Source: Roseivivax marinus (GTDB lineage Bacteria; Pseudomonadota; Alphaproteobacteria; Rhodobacterales; Rhodobacteraceae). From it: DNA of 64,000 nucleotides. Both the position numbers and the translations under genes were made by a program. The notes under the pieces were generated by a model, which was given only the letters and a program-made list of their open reading frames with translations, did no database searches and had not been told where the DNA came from. Positions 12,811 through 63,160 of this stretch are shown piece after piece. How positions within the stretch are numbered: the stretch's first letter is position 1; every line of letters starts with the position of its first letter. The stretch lies in assembly GCF_900109705.1 (NCBI RefSeq), contig NZ_FOAI01000003.1, positions 248,001-312,000 of the forward strand, given 5' to 3'.

Positions 12811-12894
12811 GGGGTCGTCCTTTGCGCGAAGGTGCGGGCGTTGCTCCCGCTCTTACCAAGCCGGGGCCGAAGATCAAGCGTGCGCCTTAATGCC

Positions 12895-12923
12895 TTGACA
12901 GCCCACGGCGGACTGACTTGCAT
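12895..12923 (+). promoter_or_regulatory. Candidate sigma-70-type promoter of the coiled-coil/zapA operon
   Basis: A consensus TTGACA (12895-12900) is followed after exactly 17 bases by TTGCAT (12918-12923), a weak -10. It lies about 118 bases upstream of the first gene on the plus strand, opposite the transketolase start. Transcription from here would leave a GC-rich leader of about 110 bases. Confidence 0.4.
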
Positions 12924-13041
12924 CGGACCACGCTGCCGGGCCATGCCGCAGGGGCGCGATTCGAGCGCCGCCCCGCCATGACGCGTCGGGTGGCGTTCGG
13001 CGAAAGAACGGCCGCCACGGCGGGCAGAAGGGACTGGACCG

Positions 13042-14326: not shown

Positions 14327-14410
14327 GGGTAGAGGTGGGGCCGCGTTGCGGACCGCCGCCGTCGATGCCGGTCCGGCGCACCGTGCATGCGGAACGCCGT
14401 AAAACCGCGA

Positions 14411-14440
14411 CGTCGCGCGCGCCCGAGGGGCCGCGCGACG
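14411..14440 (-). terminator. Terminator after grxD
   Basis: Perfect 9-bp stem CGTCGCGCG/CGCGCGACG with a 12-base loop. On the minus strand it follows the grxD stop by 10 bases, with GGTTTT a few bases beyond the stem. It also separates grxD from the convergent MliC-like gene. Confidence 0.55.
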
Positions 14441-14450
14441 CAGGGACGTC

Positions 14451-14819
14451 TCAGCCGTTGGCCTGACGGATCTTGTCGGCCGCGTCCTTGTCGAAGGTCA
14501 CGCCGTTCTGCTCGAACAGCTGGTCCAACTCGCCCGAGAGCGTCATCTCGGTGATGATGTCGCAGCCACCGACGAATTCGCCCTTCACATAGAGCTGCGG
14601 GATCGTCGGCCAGTCGGAATAATCCTTGATGCCCTGGCGGATGCCGTCGTCGGACAGCACGTTCACGTCGGCATATTCCACGCCCATGTAGTTCAGGACG
14701 CCCGCGACGCGGCTGGAGAACCCGCACTGCGGCATGGTCTTGGTGCCCTTCATGAAGAGCACCACGTCGTTGGCCTTCACGGTTTCTTCGATCTGGGTCT
14801 GTGCGTCGGTGGTGGTCAT
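14451..14819 (-). CDS. grxD: Monothiol glutaredoxin, CGFS type
   Basis: Protein of 122 residues with the CGFS active site (Cys32-Ser35) preceded by FMKGTK, the [16 protein letters not shown] glutathione-binding segment and GCDII. CGFS glutaredoxins carry and deliver 2Fe-2S clusters and work with BolA proteins. The bolA gene lies just upstream in the same direction, separated by a 41-codon open frame, so the pair is likely one operon. The sequence is complete and of normal length, with an extra helical C-terminus of about 15 residues. Confidence 0.95.
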
Positions 14820-39791: not shown

Positions 39792-39865
39792 TGGAGCGGG
39801 TGAAGGGAATCGAACCCTCGTCGTCAGCTTGGGAAGCTGCTGCTCTACCATTGAGCTACACCCGC
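39792..39865 (-). tRNA. tRNA-Gly (anticodon CCC)
   Basis: On the minus strand from 39865 the cloverleaf has acceptor GCGGGTG, D arm GCTCAATGGTAGAGC, anticodon arm GCAGCTTCCCAAGCTGA with anticodon CCC (first stem pair G-A), T loop GGTTCGATTCC and an encoded CCA. It closely resembles bacterial tRNA-Gly(CCC). It is convergent with the deacetylase gene, 38 bases away. Confidence 0.95.
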
Positions 39866-40046: not shown

Positions 40047-40217
40047 ATGACACGCACCGGGACACGAGATTTCACACTGGTCCGCGCGGCCCTTCTGGCG
40101 GCGCTATTGGGGCTCGGCCACGTGGTGACCACGCTGCACGAGTCCGAGGGACCGGATACGCTCGACGAGACGGACCTGTCGGTTCTCAGCAATCCCGGCG
40201 CGGGCACCACGGTCTGA
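40047..40217 (+). CDS. Small hydrophobic-N-terminus protein
   Basis: A 56-codon frame with a strong GGGAGG site 6 bases before the ATG. The product has a basic start (MTRTGTRDFTLVR), a short hydrophobic helix (AALLAALLGLGHVV) and an acidic tail (ESEGPDTLDETDL), compatible with a small membrane or exported protein. No family is recognised. It is 132 bases upstream of the transglutaminase/DUF2126 gene on the same strand and could be its first co-transcribed gene. Confidence 0.5.
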   Translation: MTRTGTRDFTLVRAALLAALLGLGHVVTTLHESEGPDTLDETDLSVLSNPGAGTTV

Positions 40218-40281
40218 GACGACGTCAACGCTGAAACCTTGGGCGACCGCGCGCCGCCCTGGGACTCGTTCGCGCGATTGA

Positions 40282-40340
40282 GGGGTGCAAAGCCCCGCCG
40301 AGCCTGAGAAAGTCCGGATCGACAGGAACGAAGCCCGGAC
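40282..40340 (+). promoter_or_regulatory. Potentially structured leader before the amidoligase operon
   Basis: Two stems can form: GGGG/CCCC (40282-40285 with 40293-40296) and GTCCGG/CCGGAC (40312-40317 with 40335-40340). The AGGA at 40324-40327 is within the second loop and about 22 bases from the ATG at 40350, too far to act directly. No known riboswitch matches by eye. Confidence 0.3.
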
Positions 40341-40349
40341 CCCGACGGC

Positions 40350-43300
40350 ATGGCCATCTACGCGAGCATCCACCACCTCACGCACTACAGCTACGACCGC
40401 AACGTCACTCTGGGCCCGCAGATCGTGCGTCTGCGGCCGGCGCCGCACAGCCGGACGCGGGTGATCTCGCATTCGCTCAAGGTCGGGCCCGAGCCGCACT
40501 TCGTGAACCACCAGCAGGACCCCTACGGCAACTGGCTGGCGCGCTTCGTCTTTCCCGAGCCGGTGCGCGAGTTCCGGATCGAAGTCGATCTCGTCGCGGA
40601 CATGTCGGTCTACAACCCGTTCGACTTTTTCGTCGAGGAAAGTGCCGAGCACTGGCCCTTCGACTACCCCGCCGACCTGACCGAGGACCTGTCGATCTAT
40701 CGCAGACCCGCCGACACGGGGCCGAGGTTCGCGGCCTATCTCGACGGTCTCTCGAAGGAGCATGGCCAGCGCACGGTGGACATGCTGGTCGGCCTGAACG
40801 CCAAGGTCTCGGGCGACGTGACCTACCTGATCCGGATGGAGCCTGGCGTGCAGACGCCCGAGGAGACGCTCGAAAAGGGGTCCGGCTCGTGCCGCGACAG
40901 CTCGTGGCTGCTGGTGAACCTGCTTCGGCACATGGGGTTCGCGGCGCGCTTCGTGTCGGGCTACCTGATCCAGCTCAAGCCCGACCTGCAGGCGCTCGAC
41001 GGGCCATCGGGGACCGACCACGACTTCACCGACCTGCACGCCTGGGTCGAGGTGTTCCTGCCCGGCGCGGGCTGGATCGGCTTCGACCCCACCTCGGGGC
41101 TCATGGCGGGCGAAAGCCACATTCCTCTGGCCGCCACGCCGCATTACCGCAACGCCGCGCCGATCGCGGGCGGATTCAGCGCCGCCGGCACGCCCGAGGT
41201 CGACTTCGAGTTCGACATGACGGTCGCGCGCGTGGCCGAGCATCCGCGCATCACCAAGCCGTTCTCGGACGAGGCATGGGACCGGCTGAACGCGCTGGGG
41301 CACAAGGTGGACGCCGCGCTCGAGGCCGGGGACGTGCGGCTGACCATGGGCGGCGAGCCGACCTTCGTCTCCATCGACGATTACGAAAGCCCCGAGTGGA
41401 ACACCGCCGCGGTGGGGCCCATGAAGCGCGGGCTGGCCGACGACCTGATCCGGCGCCTGCGGTCCCGCTTCGCACCCGGCGGCTTTCTGCATTACGGGCA
41501 GGGCAAGTGGTATCCCGGCGAGACGCTGCCGCGCTGGACGTTCTCGCTCTACTGGCGGCGCGATGGCCAGCCGATCTGGTCGGACGAGAGCCTCGTGGCC
41601 AGCGAGACCGAGGCCAGGGGCGCGGATGCGGCGGACGCGGGCAGCTTCCTCGCCACCCTGGCCGACGAGCTGGGGGTAGAGACCGAGTATGTCGTTCCCG
41701 CCTACGAGGACCCCGCCGAGTGGCTGCTGAAGGAGGCCAACCTTCCCGAGAACGTCACGCCCGAGAACAACAAGCTCAAGGATGCCGAGGAACGCCACCG
41801 CATGGCGCAGGTGTTCGAGCGCGGCCTGACGGAGCCCACGGGCTACGTGCTGCCGATCCAGGCGTGGCAGTCCAAGGCCACCGGACGACGCTGGCGGTCG
41901 GAGAAGTGGAAGCTGCGGCGCGGCAAGGTGTTCCTCGTGCCGGGCGACAGTCCCGTGGGTTACCGCATCCCGCTGGGTGCGCTGCCCTACGTGCCGCCGT
42001 CGCAATATCCCTACACCTACGTCACCGACCCGACCGTGCCGCGCGATCCGCTGCCCGAGTTCGACCACGGGCCCGAGGTCGAAGGCGACCGCGCGCAGCC
42101 TGTGTCGGCCCCCGAGCCCACCGGACCGGTGCAGACGGTGATCGAGCAGCATCTCGGCCCGGTCGAGGGCGCGGTCCGTACCGCGCTCTCGGTCGAACCG
42201 CGCGACGGCAAGCTGTGCGTGTTCATGCCGCCGGTGGAGGCGCTGGAGGACTACCTCGAACTCGTCGCCGCGGCCGAGCGGTCGGCCAAGCGGCTGGGTC
42301 TGCCGGTCCATATCGAGGGATACTCGCCGCCGCACGATCCACGCATGAACGTGATCCGCGTTGCGCCCGATCCGGGCGTGATCGAGGTGAACATCCACCC
42401 GGCGCACAGCTGGGACGACTGCGTCGCCACCACCGAGGCGATCTACGAGGAGGCGCGCCAGTGCCGGCTTGGCGCCGACAAGTTCATGTTCGACGGGCGC
42501 CACACCGGCACCGGCGGCGGCAACCACGTGGTGGTGGGCGGCGCGACTCCGAACGACTCGCCGTTCCTGCGCCGGCCCGATCTTTTGAAGTCGCTGATCC
42601 TCACTTGGCAGCGGCATCCGTCGCTCAGCTACCTGTTCTCGGGCCTCTTCATCGGCCCGACCAGCCAGGCGCCCCGGATCGACGAGGCCCGGCACGACTC
42701 GCTCTACGAGCTTGAGATCGCGCTGGCGAACATCCCCTCGCCCGATTGGGGCGGCACGCCGCCGTGGCTGGTGGACCGGCTCCTTCGGAACATCCTGATC
42801 GACGTCACCGGCAACACCCACCGCGCCGAGATCTGCATCGACAAGCTGTTCTCGCCCGACGGACCCACCGGCCGGCTTGGCCTCGTGGAGTTCCGCGGCT
42901 TCGAGATGCCTCCTGACCCCAAGATGAGCCTCGCGCAGCAGGTGCTGCTGCGCGCGATCATCGCGCGGTGCTGGCAGGCCCCGGTCTCGGGGCGGCCCGT
43001 GCGCTGGGGGACCGAGTTGCACGATCGCTTCATGCTGCCGCATTTCCTCTGGCAGGATTTCCTCGATCTGCTGCGCGACCTCGCGGCGCACGGCTTCGAG
43101 CTCGATCCGGTGTGGTTCGAGGCGCAGGCTGAGTTCCGCTTCCCGTTCTGTGGACAGGTCGACTACGAGGGCACGCGGCTGGAGCTGCGGCAGGCGCTGG
43201 AGCCGTGGCATGTGCTGGGCGAGCGCGGCGCCATCGGTGGCACGGTCCGCTACACCGACAGCTCCGTCGAGCGGCTGCAGGTGCAACTGACCACCCAGAA

Positions 43301-43688
43301 CCCCGAACGCTTCAAGGTCGCGTGCAACGGGCGGCTGATGCCGATGACACGGACCGAGACGTCGGGCGTGTCTGTGGCGGGCGTTCGGTTCAAGGCATGG
43401 CAGCCTGCCGAGGCGCTCCACCCGACAGTGCCGGTCCACGCGCCGCTGACCTTCGATGTATGGGACAGCTGGTCGAACCGGGCGCTGGGGGGATGCACCT
43501 ACCATGTGGCGCATCCCGGCGGGCGCAACTACGACACCTTCCCGGTCAACGGCAACGAGGCTGAAGCGCGTCGCCTCGCGCGGTTCGAGCCCATGGGCCA
43601 CACGCCCGGCACCGCGGTGCCACCGACAGAAACGCCGCACCCTGAATTTCCCTTCACGCTGGATCTGCGCCGCCCGCCCGGGGTGTGA
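40350..43688 (+). CDS. Transglutaminase-like domain fused to DUF2126 predicted amidoligase
   Basis: Protein of 1112 residues. Residues 1-160 form the beta-rich transglutaminase N-terminal domain ([17 protein letters not shown]). The transglutaminase-like core has a complete triad: Cys181 (GSCRDSS), His230 (LHAWVEV) and Asp246 (FDPTSG). From about 310 to the end is DUF2126, with [22 protein letters not shown], the [12 protein letters not shown] loop and [11 protein letters not shown], classed as a putative amidoligase. Such proteins are predicted to form or cut peptide-like amide bonds on an unknown product. It leads the ATP-grasp/alpha-E and second transglutaminase genes. Confidence 0.85.
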
Positions 43689-43757
43689 TAGAGAGGCCCG
43701 ATCGGGACGGCGCGAGTTGGGAGGCGCCCCCGGCGGGAACGGGACGATGCGCGAGCA

Positions 43758-46175
43758 GTGGGCGTGACACGGATGGACAAGACCGCGCCGGCGGCGGCCG
43801 AAGATGCCGTCGCCCGGCTGGTGCGCGGCTACGCGCCGCCGGCGGGCGTGGCCGACGAAATGCTGGACGCAGCGGGTCAGGTGCGGCCGGTCTGGCGTCC
43901 CTTCCTCGACCGCTTCGCGCACCTGTCGGCCGAGGACCTGTCGCGCCGCTTCGCCCGTGGCGATCACTACCTGCGCGATGCGGGCATCTTCCACCGTCAG
44001 GTGGACGAGGGTGGCGCGTCGGAGCGGGACTGGCCTCTCAGTCACGTCCCGGTCCTGCTGGAAGAGGCAGACTGGACCCGGATCAAGACCGCCGTCATCC
44101 AGCGGGTCGACTTGCTCGAGTCCGTGCTCGCCGATCTCTACGGCGCAGGCTGGCTGGTGCGCGAGGGAGTGCTGCCGGCGGAACTGGTCGCCGGAAACCC
44201 CGCCTTCCTGCGGCCGATGGTGGGCGTCCGGCCGCCCTCGGGGCATTACCTGCACTTCGCCGCCTTCGAGATCGGCCGCGCGCCGGACGGGTCGTGGTTC
44301 GTGCTTGGCGACCGGACCGAGGCGCCCTCGGGCGCGGGCTTCGCGCTCGAGAACCGGGTCGCGACCATGCGGGTCTTCTCGGATCCGTTCGACCATGACC
44401 GCGTGCACCGGCTTGCGGGCTTCTTCGGCGGCTTTCGCGACGCTCTCGGCGCCTCGGCCCGCGCGCTCGACGGCCGCATGGCGATCCTGACTCCGGGGCT
44501 CGGGACCGAGACCTACGACGAACACGCCTACATCGCGCGCTATCTCGGGATGATGTTGCTGGAGGGCGAGGATCTGACCGTGGTCGGCGGCCGGGTGATG
44601 GTCCGCACGGTGGCGGGGCTGAAGCCGATCTCGGTGCTTTGGCGCAGGCTCGACGCGGCCTTCGCGGATCCGCTGGAGCTGGACGACCGGTCGGCGCTCG
44701 GGACGCCGGGGCTGGTTTCGGCGATGCGTGCCGGCAACGTGTGCATGGCCAACGCCCTCGGCGCGGGGCTGGTGCAGACGCGGGCGCTGCTGGCGTTCCT
44801 GCCGCGCATTTCGGACTACCTGACGGGTGCGCCGCTCGAGATGCCCAACATCGCCACGTGGTGGTGCGGCCAGCGGCGCGAGCGCGAGTATGTCATCGGC
44901 CAGCACGCGCGGATGATGGTGGGGCCGGCGCTGAGCCAGGAGCTTCCCTTCGAGGCCACCGGCGATACGCTGATCGCCGGCCGTTTCCAGGACGGCCGCG
45001 ACGCGGATCCGGCAATGTGGATCGAGAAGCACGGCCGCGATCTCGTGGGTCAGGAAGCCGTGAACCTCTCGACAACCCCGGTCTGGGAGGACGGCGCCTT
45101 TCGTCCGCGTCCGGTGATGATCCGGGTCTTCGCGGCGCGCACAGCCTCGGGCTGGAAGGTGATGCCTGGCGGCTTCGCCCGGATCGGGGCGTCCGAGGAT
45201 GCCACCGCGCTGTCCTTGCGCCGCGGGGGCCGGGTGGCCGATGTCTGGGTGGTCTCGCCCGATACAGTGCCCACGGAGTCGCTCGCGCGTTCCGACGGGC
45301 CGTTCCGCCGCGCTGCAGACAGCCTTCTGCCCGCCCGCGCCGCCGACAACCTGATGTGGCTCGGCCGCTACGTGGAAAGGGCGGAGCACATGATCCGCCT
45401 CCTCAGGGCCTACCACCTGAGGTTGGCCGAGACCGGCCGTGCGGACGACCCGCGCGTGGAGCGTATCGGCGCGCATCTCGAGGCGCTCGGCGTCCCGCGC
45501 GAGATCGCGGCCAAGGGCGCGGTCTCCGAGACGCTCGATGCGGCGATTCGCGCGGCGTCCAAGGTGCGGGACCGCTTTTCGGTGGATGGCTGGGCGGCGC
45601 TACGCGACTTGCGCGCGGACCTCGCCGATCACAGCGCACGGCTCACACCGGGCGACGAGGCGGCGCGGGCGCTGTCCGAACTTCTGCGCGGCACCGCGGG
45701 GTTCGCGGGCCTAGTCCATGACAACATGTACCGTTTCGTCGGCTGGCGCTTCTTGTCCATCGGCCGCGCGTTGGAGCGCGCCGCGGGCATGATCGCAACG
45801 CTGCGCGACTTCGCCGACGCCGAGGCGCCGGAGGGCTGTCTCGACGCGGCGGTCGAGGTCGGCGACAGCGTGATGACCCACCGCCGCCGCTACCAGATCG
45901 AGACCAACCGCGAGACGGTGATCGACCTTCTGGCACTCGACGCGCGCAACCCGCGCTCGATCCACTTCCAGATCGCGTTGATCCGGCGGCTTGCGGCGGA
46001 CCTTCCTGGGGCCGAGGTGTCCGGTGCCCTGTCCGAGCCGATGCGCGCGATCCTGCGGATCGAGACGCAGCTTGCCACTGCCGAGCCGTCCGAACTGGAC
46101 GACCGCGCGCTGCGCAAGCTCGCCCGAGGGGTCGCGGGCATTTCCGAGCGGCTGACAGCCGCCCACCTGTCCTGA
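43758..46175 (+). CDS. Circularly permuted ATP-grasp ligase fused to alpha-E domain
   Basis: Protein of about 805 residues joining two parts often encoded separately. Residues about 70-500 are the circularly permuted ATP-grasp type 2 domain (DUF404/DUF407), with MAILTPGLGTETYDEHAYIARYLG and VMVRTVAGLKPISVLWRR. From about 520 the helical alpha-E domain (DUF403) follows, starting ARAADNLMWLGRYVERAEHMIRLLR. ATP-grasp enzymes join a carboxylate to an amine using ATP. The start is uncertain: this GTG, a GTG at 43764 or an ATG at 43773; none has a strong ribosome-binding site. The second transglutaminase gene follows after 15 bases. Confidence 0.85.
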   Translation: MGVTRMDKTAPAAAEDAVARLVRGYAPPAGVADEMLDAAGQVRPVWRPFLDRFAHLSAEDLSRRFARGDHYLRDAGIFHRQVDEGGASERDWPLSHVPVLLEEADWTRIKTAVIQRVDLLESVLADLYGAGWLVREGVLPAELVAGNPAFLRPMVGVRPPSGHYLHFAAFEIGRAPDGSWFVLGDRTEAPSGAGFALENRVATMRVFSDPFDHDRVHRLAGFFGGFRDALGASARALDGRMAILTPGLGTETYDEHAYIARYLGMMLLEGEDLTVVGGRVMVRTVAGLKPISVLWRRLDAAFADPLELDDRSALGTPGLVSAMRAGNVCMANALGAGLVQTRALLAFLPRISDYLTGAPLEMPNIATWWCGQRREREYVIGQHARMMVGPALSQELPFEATGDTLIAGRFQDGRDADPAMWIEKHGRDLVGQEAVNLSTTPVWEDGAFRPRPVMIRVFAARTASGWKVMPGGFARIGASEDATALSLRRGGRVADVWVVSPDTVPTESLARSDGPFRRAADSLLPARAADNLMWLGRYVERAEHMIRLLRAYHLRLAETGRADDPRVERIGAHLEALGVPREIAAKGAVSETLDAAIRAASKVRDRFSVDGWAALRDLRADLADHSARLTPGDEAARALSELLRGTAGFAGLVHDNMYRFVGWRFLSIGRALERAAGMIATLRDFADAEAPEGCLDAAVEVGDSVMTHRRRYQIETNRETVIDLLALDARNPRSIHFQIALIRRLAADLPGAEVSGALSEPMRAILRIETQLATAEPSELDDRALRKLARGVAGISERLTAAHLS

Positions 46176-46190
46176 GGCGGCGCCCGCGTC

Positions 46191-47072
46191 ATGCGCTACG
46201 ACCTGACCCTCGAGATCGGCTACGACTACGGCGCCCCAGCGCCCTCGGCCCGGTGCGTGCTGCGTGTGGCGCCGCGGCGGGTCGCGGGCGAGCAGCGCGT
46301 CGAGGCCGAGCGCCTGCGCGTGACGCCGGAGCCGGGCGAGATCGCCTATCGCACGGACTTTTTCGGAAACTCCGTCACCGAGATGGGCTTCACCGACCCG
46401 TTGCAGGTGGTCACCGTGCGTCTCAGCGCCCGGATCGAGAGGCTTGCCCGTCCGCCGCAGCTCGATCTGACCCCGCGGCTCGACCGGCTCGCCGCCGAGA
46501 TCGGCACCCGCAGCGCGCTCGGCCCGGAGTCGCCCGACCACTTCGTGTCGGCGTCACCGCGCATCGGCTACGAGCCGGCCATAGCCGCCTTCGCGCACGC
46601 ACTCATCGGCCCGCAGATGACCGCGCTCGGCGCGGTGCAGACGATCGGTCAGGCGTTGCACACGCACATGACGTTCGACGCCGAAGCGACCGACGTGGAC
46701 ACCGAGCCGGGCCATGCCTTCGCCGAGGGGAGGGGCGTGTGCCAGGACTTCAGCCACGTGATGATCGCAGGGCTGCGCGCGGTGGGGGTTCCGGCAGGCT
46801 ACGTCTCCGGGTTCCTGCGTACCGAGCCGCCGGCCGGCCAGCCGCGCCTCGCCGGGGCGGATGCGATGCACGCCTGGGTGCGGGCGTGGTGCGGGGCCGA
46901 GACCGGCTGGATCGACTACGACCCCACCAACCACATGATGGTCGGCACCGATCACATCGTTGTCGCGGTCGGCCGCGACTATTCGGACGTCGCCCCGGTG
47001 AAGGGCGCGGTGCGCTCGGCCGGGGTCCAGGCGTCGCACCACAGCGTGGATCTCGTGCCGCTGGGCGAGTGA
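46191..47072 (+). CDS. Transglutaminase-like cysteine protease-fold protein
   Basis: Protein of 293 residues. A beta-rich N-terminal domain (LTLEIGYDYGAPAPSARCVLRVAPRR) precedes a transglutaminase-like core with Cys184 (GVCQDFSHV), His227 (MHAWVRAW) and Asp244 (DYDPTNH). All three catalytic residues are present, so peptidase, transferase or transpeptidase activity is plausible. It belongs to the alpha-E/ATP-grasp associated group and ends with VDLVPLGE. It is 15 bases downstream of the ATP-grasp/alpha-E gene, clearly the same operon. Confidence 0.87.
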   Translation: MRYDLTLEIGYDYGAPAPSARCVLRVAPRRVAGEQRVEAERLRVTPEPGEIAYRTDFFGNSVTEMGFTDPLQVVTVRLSARIERLARPPQLDLTPRLDRLAAEIGTRSALGPESPDHFVSASPRIGYEPAIAAFAHALIGPQMTALGAVQTIGQALHTHMTFDAEATDVDTEPGHAFAEGRGVCQDFSHVMIAGLRAVGVPAGYVSGFLRTEPPAGQPRLAGADAMHAWVRAWCGAETGWIDYDPTNHMMVGTDHIVVAVGRDYSDVAPVKGAVRSAGVQASHHSVDLVPLGE

Positions 47073-48351: not shown

Positions 48352-50730
48352 TCACTCCGGCGCCGGCCGGGTGAATACGAGCGCCATCGAGTCCTTCATG
48401 ATGAGCGGACCGGACTCGTATTCCTCGCCGATGCCCGGCGTCCGCAGGGCACAGGTCCACTTGAAGCCCTCGAGCCCCGGGATCTTCAGACGCAGCGGGT
48501 CGAAATCCGCGGTCTCTTTCCCCTCCATGTGGATGATCGAATAGACCTGCTCGCCGTCCGGACCATGCCGCAGGGAGGTGAAGATCGTGCGCCCCTCCAG
48601 CGGCTCGATGTAGCTGAAGTGATCCTTCGGGCCGTAATTGTCCCGCAGCCAAGGGCGCGCGGCCCGGAAGTCGCGCAGGCTCAGCGCGAAGTTGGACTGC
48701 ACCGGGTCGAGAGAGCCCAGCGTATGGCCGATGTTGCAGTAGTCGTGCATGTCGTCCATCCACGCCCGCGCCACCTGCTTGAGCGTCTGCGGCGTGTAGT
48801 GCGGCCCGGCGAGCGGCGGATCGGTCGTGTTCAGGAGCCGCGCGATGTCCTCGAGGTCGTAATCCGTCACCTCGACGAGCGCGGGCAGGAAGGTGCAGAA
48901 GCGCGCGAGATCGGCGCGTGTCTCGAAGCCCAGCTCCTTCAGGCGCGTGAAGTTACCCGGGATCATGTAACTGTATTCATCCACCTGCCAGCGCAGCGAG
49001 ATCGCCTCTTCGGCCACCACCTTCACGCCGTAGCGGTCGTCCTGATTGCGCACGAAGCCCCAGGAGGCGCGCGCCATCGCGTTGAGGAAGTCCATCGGAA
49101 CGCCCGGCAGCGCCACGTAGGTCAGCATGTGGGCCGCGGGGTTGTCGTAGGCCTTGTCGAGGATCTCCATCCGCGTGTTGCCGAGCCGGGTGTTGATGTT
49201 CATCTTCGGGCTGACCTGCGTGCCGCGCCGCAGGGTGTCGTGGTTCGACGTGCCCGAGATCCAGTTCGAACCGCTGTTGAGGCATTCGCGGATGCGCCAG
49301 TACTTGCCCAGCCAGAAGGTGTAGAGGAACGGCGTGTTGTGGGCGAAGGTCAGGGGGCCCCACTGGAACACGTCCTCGTCGCGCTGCGCCTCGATCACAG
49401 CGCGGTAGGTCGAGGACAGTTCCCAGTCCTCCTGCGGCCAGGGGCGGCCGTCCTCGAAGATGAACCACGGGCGATAGCGGGTTCCCGCGACCTCCTGCAC
49501 CACGTCGGCCATGCTTTGCAGGTATTCGTCGTCGTGACGCAGCACCTGCGCGCCCGCGTCCCAGTACTTGAAGTCCTGCGCGCCGTCGACGCGCACGCCG
49601 TCGGCGCCGAAGTTCACCTTGCGCCGCTGCATCTCGAGCAGGATCGCCCGCACGGCGGGGTCCTGGTAGGCGAGGTTCTGACCGTACATGTTCGGCCCGG
49701 CGAAGAAGTGGTCGTTCAGGACTCGCAGGCCCTGGTTATCCGAGTGACCGTAGACCACGTCGAAGATCAGCTTCTTGGGCGTGCCGGGGAAGTTGTGCAG
49801 CGCCGCTGCAAGGTCCACCAACTCGTCCGGGCGACCCGACTCCAGCAGCACCGGGTTCACCGTGGCCATGCCCGCGATGACGTTGTCGTAGCCCCAGTTG
49901 GTGGTATCGGGACGCAGGAGCGACACGGTCACGCCGTGGTCGGTGCCGTCGTGCTCTTCCCAGAAATCCGGGCCGGCCTCGTAGACGGTGGTGGGCTCGA
50001 CGGGCAGGAGCTGTACCGCCTCGTAGCCGAGATAGATCTGGTCGGCGGGATCCATGGGCAGGCCGCGGGCCTCGCGCTCGGCCAGCCGCTCGAATTGGCG
50101 GGTCAGCGAGGCGAGCGTGCCGCCGGCGGTGGCGGTGGGCACGTGGATCTGCAGGATGTTCGACACCGGTCCGAGCTTCGCCGGTTCGCCGTCCTGCGCC
50201 AGCGCGGCCCAGTATGCACTGTCGCCTCGGGCCGCGAGCATCGCCTCGACATCGTATAGCTCGGCCGGGGCCATGGCGCCGAAGGGCAGGGACATCGCAA
50301 GCGGATCGAGAATGCGGTGCCACTGGTCCTCGGCATCGCGCCAGACGAGGGCGTAGAAGTCGCCGACCTGATCGCGGTTGCCCGCGACCATGCCCCGGAC
50401 GCACGAATAGGCGTGGCCCTCGACGCGGATGGTGGGGACGTAGAGCCGCTCGAACCTGATCTCCTGGTGCGCGCGTCCGAGGTCCAGCGGCTCTTCCGGC
50501 GACAGGATCTCGAGGAAGATGTCGCCCGAGGGCACGCGCATGTCCTGAAGCTCTGGCACCCAGAATCCGAAAGAGGCCAGCCCGTCTGCATCCACCTGCC
50601 CGCCGAGGCCCCGGGCGATCTCCTGTTCGGCCTCGAAGCGCGAATGCGCCGTGGTCAGGATCTGCTCGCAGGCTTCGGCGCGCGCGGTGGCGGCGGCCTC
50701 GTCGAAGGTGATGCGGTCGGCGAGGGGCAT
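48352..50730 (-). CDS. gghA: GH13-family glycosidase resembling glucosylglycerol hydrolase
   Basis: Protein of 792 residues with the alpha-amylase catalytic regions: DVVYGH (324-329), GVRVDG with nucleophile Asp382, FIFEDG with Glu426, and SNHD (495-498). An N-terminal domain of about 190 residues and the unusual SGTSNHDT/CLNSGSNW stretch differ from ordinary amylases and recall the cyanobacterial GghA family that splits glucosylglycerol into glucose and glycerol. The position, at the end of a block containing ggpS, supports this. No signal peptide, so it is cytoplasmic. An AGGAG site precedes the ATG. The exact substrate is inferred. Confidence 0.75.
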   Translation of the reverse strand: MPLADRITFDEAAATARAEACEQILTTAHSRFEAEQEIARGLGGQVDADGLASFGFWVPELQDMRVPSGDIFLEILSPEEPLDLGRAHQEIRFERLYVPTIRVEGHAYSCVRGMVAGNRDQVGDFYALVWRDAEDQWHRILDPLAMSLPFGAMAPAELYDVEAMLAARGDSAYWAALAQDGEPAKLGPVSNILQIHVPTATAGGTLASLTRQFERLAEREARGLPMDPADQIYLGYEAVQLLPVEPTTVYEAGPDFWEEHDGTDHGVTVSLLRPDTTNWGYDNVIAGMATVNPVLLESGRPDELVDLAAALHNFPGTPKKLIFDVVYGHSDNQGLRVLNDHFFAGPNMYGQNLAYQDPAVRAILLEMQRRKVNFGADGVRVDGAQDFKYWDAGAQVLRHDDEYLQSMADVVQEVAGTRYRPWFIFEDGRPWPQEDWELSSTYRAVIEAQRDEDVFQWGPLTFAHNTPFLYTFWLGKYWRIRECLNSGSNWISGTSNHDTLRRGTQVSPKMNINTRLGNTRMEILDKAYDNPAAHMLTYVALPGVPMDFLNAMARASWGFVRNQDDRYGVKVVAEEAISLRWQVDEYSYMIPGNFTRLKELGFETRADLARFCTFLPALVEVTDYDLEDIARLLNTTDPPLAGPHYTPQTLKQVARAWMDDMHDYCNIGHTLGSLDPVQSNFALSLRDFRAARPWLRDNYGPKDHFSYIEPLEGRTIFTSLRHGPDGEQVYSIIHMEGKETADFDPLRLKIPGLEGFKWTCALRTPGIGEEYESGPLIMKDSMALVFTRPAPE

Positions 50731-50872
50731 GAAGGGCTCCTGTCCATGTCTTGTCTGCGGCGGGCCTGGTGAGAACGGCAAGACGGCGGCCAGCCGGGGA
50801 TTTGCGTCGAACCTCGCCCGATGCCGCGTGGACGGCAAGGGGGCGGGGCGGCACGGGCGGCGGCTTGCCGCG

Positions 50873-50919
50873 GCCGCACGGGGAAGTGACCGCGATTGCG
50901 GCGCTTTCGCCCGTGCGGC
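50873..50919. repeat. 10-base inverted repeat between pgm and the GH13 gene
   Basis: GCCGCACGGG (50873-50882) is perfectly inverted at 50910-50919 with a 27-base spacer, 7 bases after the pgm stop on the minus strand. It may be a long-loop hairpin terminating pgm or a regulatory site for the downstream GH13 gene, whose start is 143 bases away. Confidence 0.35.
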
Positions 50920-50925
50920 GGTCGC

Positions 50926-56534
<5,609 letters not shown>

Positions 56535-56538
<4 letters not shown>

Positions 56539-57932
56539 GAGGGTGTGACGAGGCTCTTCATCAGGTCGGCATAGGCGCGGGCCGACACGTCCCAGCCCAC
56601 GGGGTGAGCCATAGCGTTGCGCATCAGCCGTTGCCAGAGAGGGCGGTCGGACCACAGGGTCGTGAGCTTAACCAGCGCCTGCGCCAGCCGTTCCGATGTA
56701 ACGGGATGAAATTGCAATCCGGTTGCCGCTTTCGCAGCGATGCCTGCCGGAGAGGCATTGATGACGGTATCGGCCAGCCCCCCGGTCAGCGCGACCACCG
56801 GGATGGTGCCGTGGCGCAGACCGTAAAGCTGGGTCAGGCCGCAAGGTTCGAACCGCGACGGCACCAGGATTGCGTCGCCGCCGGCCATCATCCTGTGCGA
56901 TAGCGCCTCGTCGTAGCCGAAGCGCACGGAGATGTTCGGCTCCGCCTCGGCGGCGTCTCGGAAGGCGGCCTCGAGCGCGGGCTCGCCGGAGCCGAGCATC
57001 GCCAGTTGCCCGCCGGTGCCGGTCAGCGCGGGCAGCGCCTCGAGCAGCAGATCGAGGCCCTTCTGGTGGGTGAGCCGCGAAATCACGATGGCCAGCGGTC
57101 CGTCCGAGGGCGGCAGGCCGAATTCCTCCCGCAGCGCGCGGGTGTGTTTCGCCTTGCCCCGGGGCGAGGCGTAGGGCGGCGTCCAGGCTGCGGTGTCGAT
57201 GCCGTTGAGGATGCCGCAGAGAACCCCCCGCCGGGCGCGCAGCAGACCGTCGAGGCCCATACCGAATTCGGGCTCGAGGAGTTCGGCGGCGTAGGTCGGG
57301 CTGACCGTATTGATCGCGTCGGCATGGACCAGACCGGCCTTTAGCGCGCTGATCTGGCCGTAGTACTCGAAGCCCTCCGACGTGAAACCTTCGGCCGGCA
57401 GACCGAGCGCGGCAAGTTTCTCGGCCGGGGCAAGGCCTTGGAAAGCGATGTTGTGAATCGTGACGATGGTCGGCACCCGCGCGCCGAGGGCCTGCAGGTA
57501 GACCGGCGTCAGCGCGGCCTGCCAGTCGTGGAGGTGCATGAGATCCGGCCGCCAGCCGTCCACGCCCTCGGCGCCGATTCGCGCAGCGGCCATGGAAAGC
57601 GCCGCGAAGCGTTCGGGATTGTCCGGCCAGTCGGCGCCGTCGGGACCCAGATACGGCCCTCCCGCCCGGTCGAAGAGATGCGGCGCGTCGAGCGCGTAGA
57701 GCGTCGTCTGCCCAAGCCGCCCCTCCACCAATCGCGCGGGGCCGCCGAACGTCTCGCCCAGATCGTGCGCCGGGCCGGTCGCGGCGGCCATGACCGCAGG
57801 GTAGCCCGGCAGCAAGGTGCGCATTTCGACGCCCTCGGCCGCGAGCGCGCCGGGCAGGGCGCCCGCCACGTCCGCCAGTCCGCCGGTCTTGACCAGCGGC
57901 ACGGCCTCGGAGGCGACCGACAGCGCCCGCAT
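56535..57932 (-). CDS. glgA: Glycogen synthase (ADP-glucose)
   Basis: Protein of 465 residues of GT5. The ADP-glucose binding KTGGLADV is at 15-22, HLHDWQA follows, and the C-terminal half has VISRLTHQKGLDLLLEALP and PSRFEPCGLTQLYGLRHGTIPVV with the catalytic Glu. It extends glucan chains from ADP-glucose. The start shares one base with the glgC stop (TGATG) and the stop overlaps glgX. Confidence 0.95.
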
Positions 57933-59212
57933 CAGAGCGCGGCCTCGCGCGCATCGATCATGTCCTGCGTGATGAGGGTGACACCGCCGCTGGTGACTCG
58001 GAACCAGCGGGCGTCCTCGTCGGCGTCCTCTCCCACGACAAGTCCCTCGGGGATGTGCACGCCGCGGTCGATGACCACGTTCGAAAGCCGCGCATGCCGC
58101 GCAATATGGGCGTGCGGCAGCACCACCGCGCGGTCGAGCGAGGAATACGAGTTGGTGTGCACCATGGTGAACAAGAGCGACTCGCGGATCTCGGTGCCCG
58201 AGACGATGCATCCGCCCGAGATCAGCGAGGACACCGCCGAGCCGCGCCTGTCGTCCTCGTCGTGGATGAACTTCGCGGGCGGGACGCTTTCGGAATAGGT
58301 CCAGATCGGCCAGTCGCGGTCCCACAGGTCGAGGTCGGGCGCGAAGTTCGTGAGGTCGAGGTTCGCCCGCCAGAACGCGTCGACCGTGCCCACGTCGCGC
58401 CAATAAGCCGGCGCCTCGGTCGAGGCGCGCACGCAGGAGTCCCCGAACCGGTGCGCCTGCGCCTTGCCGCCGGCGACGATATCGGGGATCAGGTCGTTTC
58501 CGAAATCGTGGGTGGATTCAGGATCTTCCGCGTCTTTCTTCAACAGGTCGCGCAGGAAGTCCCAGTTGAAAACGTAGATCCCCATCGAGGCCAGCGTCAC
58601 GTCCGGATCGTCCGGCGTGCCCGGCGGATCAGCAGGCTTTTCGAGGAAAGAGGTGATGACGTCGTTTGCGTCCACGGCCATCACGCCGAAGGCCGAGGCT
58701 TCCTTGCGCGGCACCGTCAAACAGCCGATCGTCACGTCCGCGCCGCTGGCGACGTGATGCTCGATCATCCGCTCGTAATCCATCTTGTAGATGTGATCCC
58801 CGGCCAGGATCAGCACGAAGTCCACGCCGTAACTGTCGACGATATCGATATTTTGCGCGACCGCGTCCGCTGTGCCGCGATACCAGCTCTGGTCGTTCAT
58901 GCGCTGGCTCGCGGGCAGGATGTCGAGGAACTCGTTGCGCTCGGCGCGGAAGAAGTTCCAGCCGCGCTGGCAGTGCCGGATCAGGCTGTGCGCCTTGTAC
59001 TGCGTGGCGACCGCGATCTTGCGGATACCCGAGTTCAGCGCGTTCGACAGCGCGAAGTCGATGATCCGCGTCTTGCCGCCGAAGTAGACGGCCGGCTTCA
59101 CGCGCCGGTCGGTCAGTTCGCGCAGCCGCGATCCGCGTCCGCCGGCCAGAACGAAGGCCATGGAGCGGTGCGCGAGGCGGCTGCGGCGCGCGAGTAGATT
59201 GGTCGATGACAT
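57932..59212 (-). CDS. glgC: Glucose-1-phosphate adenylyltransferase
   Basis: Protein of 426 residues. The nucleotidyl-transferase domain starts [30 protein letters not shown], continues [26 protein letters not shown] and FLEKPADPP, and is followed by a left-handed beta-helix (about 300-426). It makes ADP-glucose from ATP and glucose-1-phosphate. ADP-glucose is the donor for both GlgA and GgpS in this block. A strong GGAGGGAGG site precedes the ATG; it is 79 bases downstream of glgB. Confidence 0.96.
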
Positions 59213-59291
59213 GGTCGGTCCTCCCTCCGGGCCGGTGGGCCCGCGTCGGTCCGAGCATGGCAGTGCGACGCGGCGCGGGCTAGGGGCGGCG

Positions 59292-61481
59292 TCACTCCTC
59301 CTTCACGAAGACCAGCGTCGAGAGCGGCGGCAGGACCACCGTCGCCGAGGCGGCCTGGCCGTGCGACGGTTCCTCGACCGCATCGACTCCGCCCATGTTG
59401 CCCCGATCCCCGCCGCCGTAGATAGACGCATCCGTGTTGAGCGCCTCGCGCCAGCGGCCCGCTGTGGGAAAGCCGCTGGTGTAGGACGAATGCTCGGAGG
59501 TCGAGAAGTTCGAGAACACCACCGCCTCCGGCTCACCCGGACCGCCGCGCCGGATCCAAGAGAAGACCGATCGGTCGGGATCGTCGGCCTCGATCCACTG
59601 GAAGCCCTCTGGATCGCAGTCCTTGCGGTGAAGCGCCGGCGTGCCGCGGTAGAGCGTGTTCAGATCGCGCACCAGCCGCTTGATCCCGGCGTGGGCCGGC
59701 TTCTCGGCCATGTCCCAGTCGAGCGACACGTCGTGGTTCCACTCGTGCGCCTGGGCGAACTCCTGCCCCATGAACAGGAGCTTCTTTCCCGGGTGGCCCC
59801 ACATGAAGCCGTAAAAGGCGCGCAGGTTCGCGAAGCGGTCCCATTCGGAGCCGGGCATCTTGCCCAGCATCGAGCCCTTGCCGTGCACAACCTCGTCATG
59901 GCTGATCGGAAGGATGAAGTTTTCCGAGTAAGCGTACGAAATCCCGAAAGTCATCTGGTGGTGGTGATGCTTCCGGTGGACCGGGTCCTTCTTCATGTAT
60001 TCCAGTGTGTCGTTCATCCACCCCATGTTCCACTTGAACCCGAAGCCGAGCCCGTCCTCGTGGACCGGGCGCGACACCTTGGGATAGGACGTGGACTCCT
60101 CGGCGACGGTCATGATGCCGGGGCACTCGCCATAGGTCAGCGTGTTCATCTCGCGCATCATGGCGATGGCCTCGTAGTTCTCGCGGCCGCCATCCTTGTT
60201 CGGCACCCACTCGCCGTCGCGGCGGGAATAGTCGCGGTAGAGCATCGAAGCCACGGCATCCACGCGCAGACCGTCGGCGTGGTATTCCTCGAGCCAGTAG
60301 AGCGCGTTGGAGGTCAGGAAGTTCAGGACCTCGCGCCGCCCGTAGTTGTAGATCAGGGTGTTCCAATCCTGGTGGAAGCCCTCGCGCGGGTCCGCGTGTT
60401 CGTAGAGCGCGGTGCCATCGAACAGGCCCAGGCCGTGCGGGTCGGTGGGGAAGTGGCCCGGCACCCAGTCGAGGATCACGCCGATTCCGGCCTTGTGTGC
60501 GGCGTTAACGAGATCCCGAAACTCGTGCGGGGGGCCGTGGCGCACGGTCGGCGCGAAGAGGCCCACCGGCTGGTAGCCCCAGGAGCCGTCGAAGGGGTAT
60601 TCGCTGATCGGCATCAGCTCGATATGCGTGAACCCCATGTCGTGGACGTAGGCGATCAGCTCCTCGGCGGCCTCCACGTAGGAAATCCGGCGGTTCTCGG
60701 CCTTGCGGACCCACGAGCCAAGGTGGACCTCGTAGACGGCGATCGGCGCCTCGCGGGAGTTGCGCGTCTTGCGCTCGTCCATCCAGTCGGTGTCGGACCA
60801 GCCGTAGCCCGTGATGTCGCGCACGATGCTGGAATTCTTGGGCGGATGCTGAGAACCGAAGCCCACCGGGTCGGCCTTGAGAGGCTGGACCTCGCCGTTG
60901 GCACCGACGATCTCGTATTTGTAGACGCTGCCTTCGCCGAGGCCCGGCAGGAAGATTTCCCACACGCCCGTTGCCCCACGGCGGCGCATCACGTTGCGCC
61001 GGCCGTCCCAGGCGTTCGAGGGACCGACGACGGACACGCGCCGCGCGTTCGGCGCCCAGACAGCGAAGTGGGTCCCGAAGACGCCTTCGTGGTGCATGAC
61101 GTGCGCGCCAAGCGCCTGCCAAAGCCGGTGGTGCGTGCCCTCGCCGAGGAGATACTCGTCGAGTTCGCCCATAACCGGGCCGAAGCGGTAGGGGTCTTCC
61201 ATGTCCCAGCGCGCGCCGTCCTTGCCTTCGCCGCGCAGACCGTAGGGATCGTCACCCGGAACCGGACCGGTGAAGGCGCCTGGCACACCCTCGACCGGCG
61301 CGAGCGGATGGGCCTGTTCGCCGATCACCGCCCACATGGCGGCGGCGTTCGGGTCGAAGGCGGTGACGTGGCGGGTGCCGTTCACCTCGTGCGGTCCGAG
61401 CACCGCGAACGGATCGTCGTTGGTGCCGTCGGCAATGCGCGCGAGGGCGTCGTGCGGGGGGGAGGCTTGGAGATCGTCCAT
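59292..61481 (-). CDS. glgB: 1,4-alpha-glucan branching enzyme
   Basis: Protein of 729 residues of GH13. Two N-terminal beta domains ([30 protein letters not shown]) precede the barrel with [26 protein letters not shown] (nucleophile Asp), [10 protein letters not shown] and [13 protein letters not shown]. It introduces alpha-1,6 branches in glycogen. No good ribosome-binding site precedes the ATG. A terminator lies between it and ggpS, so it probably starts the glg transcript. Confidence 0.96.
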
Positions 61482-61608
61482 GCCGGTCAGGTTAGGCGGG
61501 ATGCGCCGCGGTTCAACGCCCGGAGGCGGAATAAGGCGCGGTGCAGGACGTTCCGCGCGGGGTCGCGCCTAGATCGCGGTCATTTCGGGCAAGCAAGCCC
61601 TAGTTGCG

Positions 61609-61644
61609 AAAACGCCGCCCGCCGGGTACGGCGAGCGGCGTTTT
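61609..61644 (-). terminator. Strong terminator between ggpS and glgB
   Basis: Perfect 10-bp stem AAAACGCCGC/GCGGCGTTTT with a 16-base loop, 22 bases after the ggpS stop, ending in TTTT on both strands. It should stop much of the ggpPS transcript before glgB. Confidence 0.8.
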
Positions 61645-61666
61645 CCGGAATACCGTCGGCCGGTGG

Positions 61667-63160
61667 TCAGGCCGCCTCGGTGCCGAAGTCCTCGGGCGAG
61701 AGCAGGGCGAGCTGATCGCGGGCCCAGGCCTCGGTGTTGTATTTCTCGACCACCCGGCGCAGCTCGGCCATGCGCGAGCGCCGTTCGTCCTCAGGCATCT
61801 CGAGGGCCATCTCGATGGCGTGGTCCATCGACTTGTTCGAGTAGGGGTTCGTCAGCACCGCCGAGCTCATCTCCATCGCGGCGCCGGCGAACTCCGACAG
61901 GATCAGCGCGCCGTCCCCGTCCGCGCGGGCGGCGGCGAATTCCTTGCAGACGAGGTTCATGCCGTCAGCCAGCGGGGTGATCCACGCCACGTCCGCCGCG
62001 CGGTAGTAGCCGACCAGGTGCTCGAACGGGATCGCCCGGCTGATCAGAACCACGGGTGTCTTCGAGAACGTGCCGAACCGGCCGTTGATGCGGCCGGCGA
62101 TCTGTTCGATCTCGGACTGGATCTCGGCATAGACCGTCATGTTGCGGTTGGCCGAGACAGACACGTGCAGCAACCGTACCGTGCCGCGCAGGTCGGGGCG
62201 ACGTTCCAGCAGACGCTCGAACGCCAGAAGCTGGTCGGCGCCGCCCTTGGTGTAATCCGTCCGGCCCACCGAAAGCACCAGCCGGTCGCCGTCGAGCTCT
62301 TCCTTGATCTCGGCGGCGCGCTTGGCGGTTTCCTCGCGGTCGGCCACTCGCGCGATGTAGTCGGTGTCCACGCCCACCGGCGTCGTGCCGAGCTTCACGA
62401 CCCGGTCCTCGGTGTGAATCTCGACGGGCACGGTGCGGTCCGACAGGGCGGAGCCTTCCGAAATGAAATCCGGATCGACCTTTTCGCGCGGAACCTGGCC
62501 CACGTCGCGGAGCGAACGGACCACGGACACGAAATTCGCGGCATATCGCGGAATGTGGAAGCCCACGACGTCGCAGGCCAGCAGCGAATCCACGATCTCG
62601 CCGCGCCATGGCAGCACGTTGAACATGTCGGCGGCCGGGAACGGCGTGTGGTGGAAGAACGAGATCCGCACGTCCGACCGCATCTGCCGCAGGTAGCCCG
62701 GGACCAGCCAAAGGTTGTAGTCGTGCACCCAGACCGAGGCGCCCTTCGCGGCTTCGGCGGCGGCGGCCTCGGCGAAGGCCCAGTTCACCTCCTTGAAGGT
62801 CGGCCAGTCGACGGGATCGTAGTTATACTTTTCCTTGAACCCGTGGAGGATCGGCCAGAACGCCTCTTTCGATGTGACGTGGTAGAAGCTCGACACCTGT
62901 TCCTTGGTCAGCGGCAGACGCGAGACGGTATATTGCCCGAAGCTGTCCTCGATCTGGATGATGCGCTCGAAGCCGGGGTTCGACGTGTCCTCGGCCTCCT
63001 TCCAGGCGACCCAGGCGCCCTTGTCGACCTTGCCGAAGAACGACTTGAGCGTCGGCACGATGCCGTTCGGGCTCTTGTTCTCCTTGAAGACAATCTTGCC
63101 GTTTTCCTCGACCTCTTCGTAAGGCTGGCGGTGATAGACGATGACGAGATCGCTGCTCAT
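61667..63160 (-). CDS. ggpS: Glucosylglycerol-phosphate synthase
   Basis: Protein of 497 residues, GT20 (OtsA-like). The start [48 protein letters not shown], the [22 protein letters not shown] phosphate-binding segment and [16 protein letters not shown] match GgpS rather than trehalose-phosphate synthase. It joins ADP-glucose and glycerol-3-phosphate to make the precursor of the osmolyte glucosylglycerol. The ATG overlaps the phosphatase stop by four bases. The GgpS-versus-OtsA choice rests on the N-terminus, length and neighbours. Confidence 0.88.

Follow-up and report, generated by a model that had tools for sequence, protein, structure and literature searches.

Genes for Anbu, a permuted ATP-grasp protein, an Alpha-E protein and a transglutaminase-like protein (TGase) are widespread. 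Iyer et al. 2009 is said to be the founding prediction for these systems. That work lies outside the literature searched here, in which no report was found of the product of the Anbu/ATP-grasp/Alpha-E/TGase genes, nor of an inactive fused ATP-grasp, nor of the term DUF2126. In the Pup-proteasome pathway a ligase of the glutamine-synthetase (GS) kind, PafA, is used together with a proteasome. This pathway is comparable in its way of working only, since here too the genome would pair a ligase, putatively of GS type, with a peptidase resembling the proteasome. A canonical ATP-grasp of an Anbu operon is reported to release phosphate from ATP, and in a pull-down Yersinia Anbu did not interact specifically with the remaining proteins of the operon (PMC6376114). 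The Rlo/Rim systems of Pseudomonas comprise the ATP-grasp protein RloC, the inactive TGase RloB and the retropepsin RloA, and RimK and RimB (PMC12239564). They are like the type described below in that an ATP-grasp, a TGase-type protein and a peptidase are found in one locus, with one partner dead. By their description the roles are nevertheless reversed: the inactive partner is the TGase, which sits in the membrane, and the text available does not describe the ATP-grasp as inactive.

The window, i.e., the whole stretch of 64,000 nucleotides of Roseivivax marinus analysed here, lies on contig 18 in the contig numbering of the assembly. Three consecutive ORFs on its + strand, with intergenic gaps of 69 and 15 bases, are considered (Table 1). 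The first-pass annotation had described three neighbouring genes, i.e., a TGase/DUF2126 gene, an ATP-grasp/Alpha-E fusion and a second TGase, and both ORFs and Pfam matches agree with it. An alternative start of gene 2 is possible at 43773. Gene 1 is the sole DUF2126 match of the genome in a genome-wide search. The NCBIfam search gave no match for any of the three proteins.

Table 1. Features of the three-gene locus (positions in the window; canonical residues are numbered as in the canonical ATP-grasp copy).
Feature	Position	Strand	Remark
Gene 1 (1112 aa)	40350-43688	+	TGase-like, about residues 1-265; DUF2126, 283-1107; Pfam Bact_transglu_N PF08379, Transglut_core PF01841, DUF2126 PF09899
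Gene 1 triad Cys181 / His230 / Asp246	40890-40892 / 41037-41039 / 41085-41087	+	positions checked
DUF2126 motifs E679-x-N681, G722-G724, H726, R776, E847, R849	42384-42896	+	positions checked
Gene 2 (805 aa)	43758-46175	+	permuted ATP-grasp, residues 98-476; Alpha-E, 524-803
G184-D185-R186 in place of metal-binding E160-D161-N162	44307-44315	+	residue comparison
R296/R297 and D299 kept (canonical R275/R276/D278)	44643-44654	+	candidate substrate arginines
G389 in place of ATP lysine K368	44922-44924	+	Gly-rich loop after G389 also gone (alignments)
M454 in place of D428; R456 retained (canonical R430)	45117-45125	+	residue comparison
S486 in place of canonical N459	45213-45215	+	residue comparison
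Gene 3 (293 aa), stand-alone TGase-like	46191-47072	+	Pfam Bact_transglu_N, Transglut_core
Gene 3 triad Cys184 / His227 / Asp244	46740-46742 / 46869-46871 / 46920-46922	+	positions checked

Some other candidates were rejected. An antisense ORF of 1790 aa (40104-45476) is probably not a gene, because the genes beneath it have strong Pfam matches. A defence system was discarded, PADLOC having no match at E 0.01. An HDAC-family gene, an SMP-30 gene and GHL5 were discarded as partners, because tblastn at 1e-15 found none of them in 172 DUF2126 stretches. Glycogen genes are found near DUF2126 in Rhizobiaceae loci, in L094, L100 and the window, i.e., largely in a single lineage.

The comparison with the Anbu operon (as in Pseudomonas and Yersinia, and here on contig 27) bears out the link to Anbu/ATP-grasp/Alpha-E/TGase systems drawn in the first-pass annotation, three domain families being common to both sets. 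The TGases have 34% identity over 146 aligned residues, and the ATP-grasp of the operon has 30% identity with gene 2 over 456 residues. The window set differs in that: (i) Anbu is missing; (ii) ATP-grasp and Alpha-E are fused; (iii) ATP-grasp residues are lost; (iv) DUF2126 is added. The reading preferred here, to which a probability of about 0.5 is given, is that the window set is one half, the accessory one, of a bipartite system of peptide or amide processing that is linked to nitrogen stress.

By their Cys-His-Asp triads, genes 1 and 3 are predicted to encode TGase-like cysteine proteins. The first-pass annotation had considered both triads intact, and they are indeed invariant among the relatives aligned: C181/H230/D246 in 28/28 and 53/53 gene-1 proteins (two alignments), C184/H227/D244 in 72/72 gene-3 proteins. 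Alignment A1 contains 27 of 29 loci (L025 and L028, with interrupted genes, being left out), while A2 was made with 52 of the 75 proteins listed, A3 with 61 of 70 and A5 with 31 of 44.

DUF2126 (PF09899) is matched at 1336 bits over profile positions 4-826 of 826, i.e., at full length. Its motif residues (E679, N681, H726, R776, E847 and R849 included) are invariant in 38/38 aligned domains; a loss of these putative catalytic residues, which the first-pass annotation had named as counting against its proposal, is thus not found here. This alignment (A4, whose numbering is the gene number minus 282) was built from 37 loci, i.e., 35 out of the 147 ranges computed, with L245 and L246 added. The invariant motifs may resemble those of GS-type active sites. 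The AlphaFold2 model of the domain has a pLDDT of 74.6 and a pTM of 0.64. No GS-type entry is present among the 50 listed of its 468 Foldseek matches, the profile has no credible relative in the PDB (best E 0.65) and no other Pfam family is matched at E up to 10. Neither the profile search of the PDB nor the listed Foldseek matches thus confirm the amidoligase identity given to DUF2126 in the first-pass annotation. For ATP-driven chemistry in the window set, DUF2126 would be the one candidate left.

A link with nitrogen is found in Burkholderia cenocepacia H111, where I35_5080-5083 are NtrC-dependent; the available part of the NtrC list comprises canonical genes, a TGase and a large TGase protein (PMC5491218). 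The gene order of I35_5080-5083 matches two Burkholderia loci read in this analysis. The fused gene and the last TGase are absent from the list as available (PMC5491218), so it shows NtrC control for neither of them. Nitrogen control is reported for Pseudomonas as well as Burkholderia systems. In the window no sigma54 -24/-12 site with up to 2 mismatches was found between 39287 and gene 1, and other control is possible. Sigma54-like matches across the window number 47 for 57.6 expected, and upstream of DUF2126 in relatives they have the same distribution as in shuffled sequence. Promoter-like sigma70 sites (0 found vs. 0.4 expected) and terminator-like sites (0 vs. 2.1) were not found either.

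The set may also be read as a net catabolic system, in which TGase-type peptidases or amidases would free the nitrogen of a polymer, peptide or isopeptide in nature, the ligase homologues only tagging or holding substrates. The two intact Cys-His-Asp proteins, set against one apparently dead ligase, are consistent with it, as are the nitrogen-related control reported in the papers and a zinc metallopeptidase (PF15887) present within the stretch at 17 of 172 DUF2126 loci and also on contig 21 of the same genome. However, the canonical ATP-grasp is nearly always retained, the canonical homologue uses ATP, and the tested Anbus had no amidase activity in the part of the paper available (PMC6376114). 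This catabolic reading is considered unlikely.

Gene 2 belongs to the circularly permuted ATP-grasp family PF14403 by profile and predicted fold. CP_ATPgrasp_2 is matched at 415 bits (cut-off 32) and Alpha-E (PF04168) at 172 bits. The AlphaFold2 model (pLDDT 89.2, pTM 0.87) matches 3n6x in Foldseek with E 6.9e-29, 27% identity and a TM-score of 0.86 normalised to 3n6x, as well as eukaryotic glutathione synthetases and the fungal Cp1B (9cjn, E 1.4e-7). The entry 3n6x is a permuted ATP-grasp of Methylobacillus flagellatus, annotated as a putative glutathionylspermidine synthase, of a fold like that of gene 2. It keeps the E-x-N, the Lys, the Gly-rich loop and an N-S-S-Q motif, whereas gene 2 has none of them. 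The glutathione synthetases and Cp1B share the fold as well; they are active ligases in the texts available, while gene 2 is devoid of their metal and ATP residues, the equivalence being set by motif and fold. In Cp1B, alanine at E163 or N165 is reported to abolish or strongly lower activity (PMC12568646).

The loss is general in the fused form. E160 is kept in 2/148 fused proteins and N162 in none, 137 having Arg in its place; both residues are present in 59/59 separate homologues. K368 is kept in 20/148 fused proteins vs. 59/59, N459 in 1/148 vs. 59/59 and D428 in 0/148. For the five positions E160, N162, K368, D428 and N459 together, 125/148 fused proteins keep none, 23 keep one and no protein keeps more, while all five are intact in 59/59 separate homologues. 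The first-pass annotation had named a lack of ATP-grasp catalytic residues as what would refute its proposal, but had not noticed it in gene 2: they are missing in the window protein, and four or five of the five are missing in 148/148 fused proteins. In the window protein G184, R186 and G389 stand where the active signature (E-x-N, lysine, Gly-rich loop) would be. Other residues are maintained, i.e., R430 in 147/148 fused proteins, R275 in 145, R276 in 136 and D278 in 139. Alpha-E retains its E540-R541 and E673-R674, at 97-100% among 118 fused proteins and at 100% among 42 separate ones.

It should be noted that 30 of the 59 separate homologues are best-scoring matches, a choice favouring canonical residues; the other 29 give the same result. 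The residue counts exclude short ATP-grasp pieces (L046, L188, L257, L252, L260, L279), and the totals of 148 and 59 exclude four further plasmid loci (L281, L282, L284, L285). Among these four, L282, L284 and L285 have a degenerate fused ATP-grasp, with R or H at N162, L284 and L285 also have an intact canonical one, and L281, being interrupted, was scored in pieces only. L212, counted among the 148 fused loci, is without DUF2126 in its stretch.

We read the fused ATP-grasp as a conserved pseudo-ligase. In the tree, fused and separate ATP-grasps split cleanly on a long branch, with a support of 0.56 at the split node. The dN/dS of the ATP-grasp part is 0.066-0.256 in 10/10 chosen pairs. The fused ATP-grasp is thus not decaying, given the clean split, the low dN/dS and the retention of the putative substrate arginines. 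A rebuilt site, not a dead one, is another way to read these data: the conserved D161-R162 and a conserved C-terminal motif would serve a different chemistry, e.g., with a nucleotide of another kind, with a donor of phosphate or carbamoyl, or without any donor. The recurrent Arg at N162, the other sites at which one new residue has become common (M242L 0.96, D319E 0.94, F287L 0.90) and the low dN/dS agree with it, but at K368, D428, N459 and in the Gly-rich loop the replacements vary widely, as expected for simple relaxation. Such a rebuilt site is thought improbable.

An intact permuted ATP-grasp, Alpha-E, TGase and Anbu are found together on contig 27. The genome has two proteasome-family matches, on contig 24 (the stronger, presumably HslV) and on contig 27, and none on contig 18. 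The first-pass annotation saw no Anbu in the window and suggested a search of the rest of the genome; the former holds only locally, because the search finds the Anbu set on contig 27. DUF2126 is present in 8 of 26 other members of the family. Among 58 other DUF2126 genomes, a canonical-type ATP-grasp is nearly full-length in 53 (48-66% identity to the copy of the present genome), partial in three and not found in two, these two genomes being 84% and 63% complete. For the high-quality genomes the values are 49/51 nearly full-length and 2/51 partial. Any CP_ATPgrasp_2 is found in 56/57 DUF2126-positive vs. 92/315 negative genomes (Fisher p about 7e-25, uncorrected for relatedness), a division that assumes the first 372 genomes as sampled, G373 and G380 being absent from that list yet matched elsewhere. 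DUF2126 can do without the pseudo-ligase, since 11/58 DUF2126 genomes have no fused-type match.

In the window the canonical and DUF2126 sets are not adjacent. Outside the class, a canonical ATP-grasp or Alpha-E lies in the same stretch at 15/26 DUF2126 loci, from 14 families; these loci were picked by the author to span families. The same holds for 3/4 plasmid loci plus 3/4 further ones (8 of 25 records sampled). Among alphaproteobacterial loci the values are 9/56 in one set (four from a single family) and 1/80 in another, composed of the 80 best matches, hence close relatives, whose species may overlap with the first; in the family itself it is 0/6 (six of the eight DUF2126 genomes). These values are corrected for two fragments, L046 and L188. 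The lack of adjacency here and in the family, together with the uncorrected statistics, would suit two independent paralogous systems that co-occur by shared lifestyle or ancestry only. Against this stand the single clusters outside the class, the 49/51 high-quality genomes with the other two partial, and the NtrC dependence that the large TGase protein shares with the canonical genes in B. cenocepacia (PMC5491218). Independence is therefore held to be very doubtful.

That the three genes form a self-contained system, the fused ATP-grasp still ligating and building a peptide with DUF2126 and the TGases unaided, agrees with the 415-bit match and the predicted fold, but it is highly improbable given that none of the 148 fused proteins retains more than one of the five catalytic positions, that the genome has an intact paralogue and that 56/58 other DUF2126 genomes have a canonical-type copy (three of them partial). 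The «complete» ligation system of the first-pass annotation is thus not supported, because the metal and ATP residues of the fused ATP-grasp are lost.

In the accessory-half reading, the contig 27 set would be the core half, with the intact permuted ATP-grasp ligase, Alpha-E, TGase and Anbu. The accessory ATP-grasp would be the pseudo-ligase, having kept the fold and possible substrate-carboxylate arginines, lost the metal and ATP residues and fused to its own Alpha-E. It would most likely pair with, or replace, the canonical ATP-grasp/Alpha-E as a non-catalytic subunit, substrate-holding or regulatory. Both TGase-type Cys-His-Asp proteins and DUF2126 would then act on the held substrate. We infer the substrate holding, the canonical pairing, the DUF2126 chemistry and the nitrogen control in this organism. 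Counted against this reading are the null pull-down, the genomes without the fused type, the few alphaproteobacterial clusters, the missing sigma54 site, the H111 list, DUF2126 without PDB relative, the 20 K368 keepers and the node support.

A bolder and speculative view, rather unlikely at present, is that the fused protein founds an ATP-free family of ATP-grasps. With its glutathione-synthetase-type fold turned into a peptide-binding receptor, or through a new D161-R162 chemistry, it might sense or present what the canonical ligase makes and so place two thiol transpeptidases and a new type of ligase (DUF2126) under the influence of nitrogen starvation.

If the DUF2126-linked ATP-grasp is a conserved pseudo-ligase and its module is nearly always accompanied by a canonical ligase, the window operon alone would make no ATP-grasp ligase set, the choice of proteins to purify together changes, and the nitrogen-stress setting would be testable.

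The three-gene layout of the operon is confirmed, with intergenic gaps of 69 and 15 bases, and so are the Cys/His/Asp triads that the first-pass annotation had placed at 181/230/246 and 184/227/244 of the two transglutaminases (TGases), without any variation in the alignments made. The genome (4.01 Mb, 39 contigs) is 99.7% complete; the window, positions 248001-312000 of contig 18, has a GC content of 69%. Among the matches listed, the closest relatives of the DUF2126 protein are those of a Rhodobacteraceae MAG and of Pseudooceanicola (78-79% identity), which points to an alphaproteobacterium and probably to the Rhodobacteraceae. Glycogen/trehalose metabolism genes are close to the operon, as also in Rhizobiaceae loci (stretches L056-L074 and similar ones), where they are arranged differently.

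Location of the operon, its neighbours and the related features discussed in the text
Feature	Sequence	Coordinates	Strand	Position
tRNA-Gly	window	39792-39865	minus	upstream of operon
Histone-deacetylase-family gene	window			upstream of operon
Three-gene operon	window	40350-47072	plus	
SMP-30 gene	window			downstream of operon
Glycogen/trehalose cluster	window	48352-63160	opposite	beyond SMP-30 gene
Anbu operon with phage-like neighbours	contig 27 (L011)	2508-14694		
PF15887 metallopeptidase gene	contig 21	160169-160876		away from window
TGase-like gene	contig 13	125738-126097		outside both sets
TGase-like gene	contig 9	182763-183065		outside both sets
PF15887 gene (example)	stretch L103	9002-9892		
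Stretch L245 with five-gene cluster	NZ_CP116251.1	9621-29990		cluster between IS6/IS26-family transposase genes

The ligation system had been called complete; this cannot be maintained, since ATP-grasp catalytic residues are missing from gene 2 and degenerate across the fused homologues. In alignments with 3n6x, a homologue of solved structure, and with the second copy of the same genome, gene 2 retains neither Glu nor Asn at the E-x-N pair; the lysine for ATP and the Gly-rich loop belonging to it are missing as well, and so is N-S-S-Q. The fused set comprises 148 ATP-grasp domains from 148 loci, i.e., the window, 72 from the 80 best-matching alphaproteobacterial loci, 45 other alphaproteobacterial stretches, 27 phylum members (6 of the same family and 21 outside the class) and 3 plasmids (Enterobacter, Caballeronia and the acidobacterium Granulicella). 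The separate set contains 59 proteins (30 picked as best-scoring matches, 29 not picked by score), and all 59 keep E160, N162, K368, D428 and N459 (numbering of the contig-27 copy). The corresponding numbers for the 148 fused proteins are 2, 0, 20, 0 and 1; none of the five residues is kept in 125 and one in 23. D147, before the E-x-N pair, is acidic in all of them (Asp in 95, Glu in 53), thus some candidate ligand remains. In glutathione synthetases, acidic residues are reported as Mg ligands and two lysines as binding the ATP phosphates (PMC2845819). For the fungal ligase Cp1B, Ala at R139, D141, E163 or N165 is reported to abolish or strongly lower activity (PMC12568646). The predicted model of gene 2 (pLDDT 89.2, pTM 0.87) matches 3n6x, glutathione synthetases and Cp1B; E160/N162 are equated with the E-x-N of the latter two by motif and fold rather than by residue-level superposition.

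Judged from its sequences, the fused ATP-grasp does not look like a decaying domain. Its dN/dS is 0.066-0.256 in all of 10 hand-chosen pairs, and the ER motifs are retained in the Alpha-E half. A FastTree tree separates fused from separate sequences cleanly (118 vs. 44; branch 0.89, node support 0.56). Canonical proteins have 122 columns with 95% conservation; in 47 of these, including R275, R276 and R430, the residue is unchanged in 90% or more of the fused proteins. Arg replaces N162 in 137/148. Because arginines are described as binding substrate carboxylates in glutathione synthetases (PMC2845819), it is plausible that gene 2 encodes a substrate-binding pseudo-enzyme.

The first-pass annotation saw no Anbu gene in the window; the rest of the genome holds one, on contig 27, together with separate genes for an intact ATP-grasp, Alpha-E and TGase on one strand, i.e., a second set of these domains. 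About 1.3 kb from this operon, an ORF weakly matches a head-tail connector; a phage-terminase-like gene is 2.6 kb away from the operon. Two more TGase-like genes are found on contigs 13 and 9. DUF2126 occurs in 120/398 genomes of the phylum sample, 59/385 of the class sample and 8/26 other genomes of the same family. In 53 of 58 other DUF2126 genomes the canonical-type ATP-grasp is nearly full-length (48-66% identity) and in three (G231, G127, G264) partial; it was not found in G099 (84% complete) and G255 (63% complete). A fused-type match (29-37% identity) is present in 47 and absent from 11, the two types being assigned in these 58 genomes by identity and residues being read in the 59 and 148 proteins only. 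Any CP_ATPgrasp_2 is found in 56/57 DUF2126-positive vs. 92/315 negative genomes, uncorrected for relatedness. Anbu is detected in only 42 of the 58 (37/51 good genomes), although divergent Anbu may have escaped the search; the constant partner is therefore the canonical ATP-grasp rather than Anbu. One stretch (L212, genome G344) has fused ATP-grasp/Alpha-E and TGase genes without DUF2126 in 12 kb, and this genome is not among the class-sample DUF2126 matches.

Both sets were considered clustered when a canonical ATP-grasp or Alpha-E was located within the same fetched stretch as DUF2126. This is the case for 15/26 loci outside the class (from 14 families), for 3/4 plasmid loci plus 3/4 further ones, for 9/56 class loci beyond the best 80 (4 of the 9 from one family), for 1/80 best-matching alphaproteobacterial loci (Pseudooceanicola pacificus, with a divergent Anbu set) and for 0/6 loci of the same family. 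The gene order on the Enterobacter roggenkampii plasmid, typed as non-mobilizable, is ATP-grasp, Alpha-E, TGase-DUF2126, fused, TGase; that of the Caballeronia plasmid resembles it, with a metallopeptidase gene inside. The Acidithiobacillus caldus plasmid carries DUF2126 and the canonical pair, with ntrC/glnL about 7 kb off, and the Granulicella stretch the DUF2126 set only. A putative zinc metallopeptidase (PF15887) is found in 17/172 DUF2126 stretches, often divergent beside DUF2126, with one copy in the genome studied; 14 well-known genomes used as controls gave no match. DUF2126 genes broken by stops or frame changes are seen in L164 (G264), L167 (G124) and L281 (a Halomonas plasmid).

Nitrogen starvation is reported to induce Anbu (PMC6376114; PMC5666114), and in P. 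putida the proteasome-beta-type PP_2685 and the circularly permuted ATP-grasp gene PP_2688 are listed as up 4.44 and 3.99 log2-fold, respectively, on nitrate vs. ammonium (PMC8050072). In marine metagenomes these domains are described as co-varying with urea metabolism (PMC3597751). A DUF404/407, DUF403, TGase and "large" TGase cluster of B. cenocepacia H111 is given as NtrC-dependent (table values -6.0 to -9.4); the cluster genes named as such do not include the fused gene or the last TGase (PMC5491218). The same order is seen in two Burkholderia loci, where TGase-DUF2126 is the large protein and the fused gene and a TGase come next. The B. cenocepacia stretch examined, from a sequence other than that of H111, contains 22 sigma54 matches, about as many as expected by chance (20.4); the sole one-mismatch match is at the 5' end of the cluster's first open frame. 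No sigma54 site was found before the window operon, and none with one mismatch before the contig-27 set.

The Pfam title of DUF2126 reads "putative amidoligase". The profile search gave no credible PDB relative, and a GS-type fold is absent among the listed Foldseek matches of its moderate-quality model. The DUF2126 motifs are invariant in 38/38 aligned domains, thus an enzymatic role is likely.

The window operon is ordinary in that its gene set is widespread. Two points are unusual: (i) throughout the relatives examined, one enzyme appears to be a conserved pseudo-ligase; (ii) the DUF2126 module nearly always co-occurs with a canonical-type ligase.
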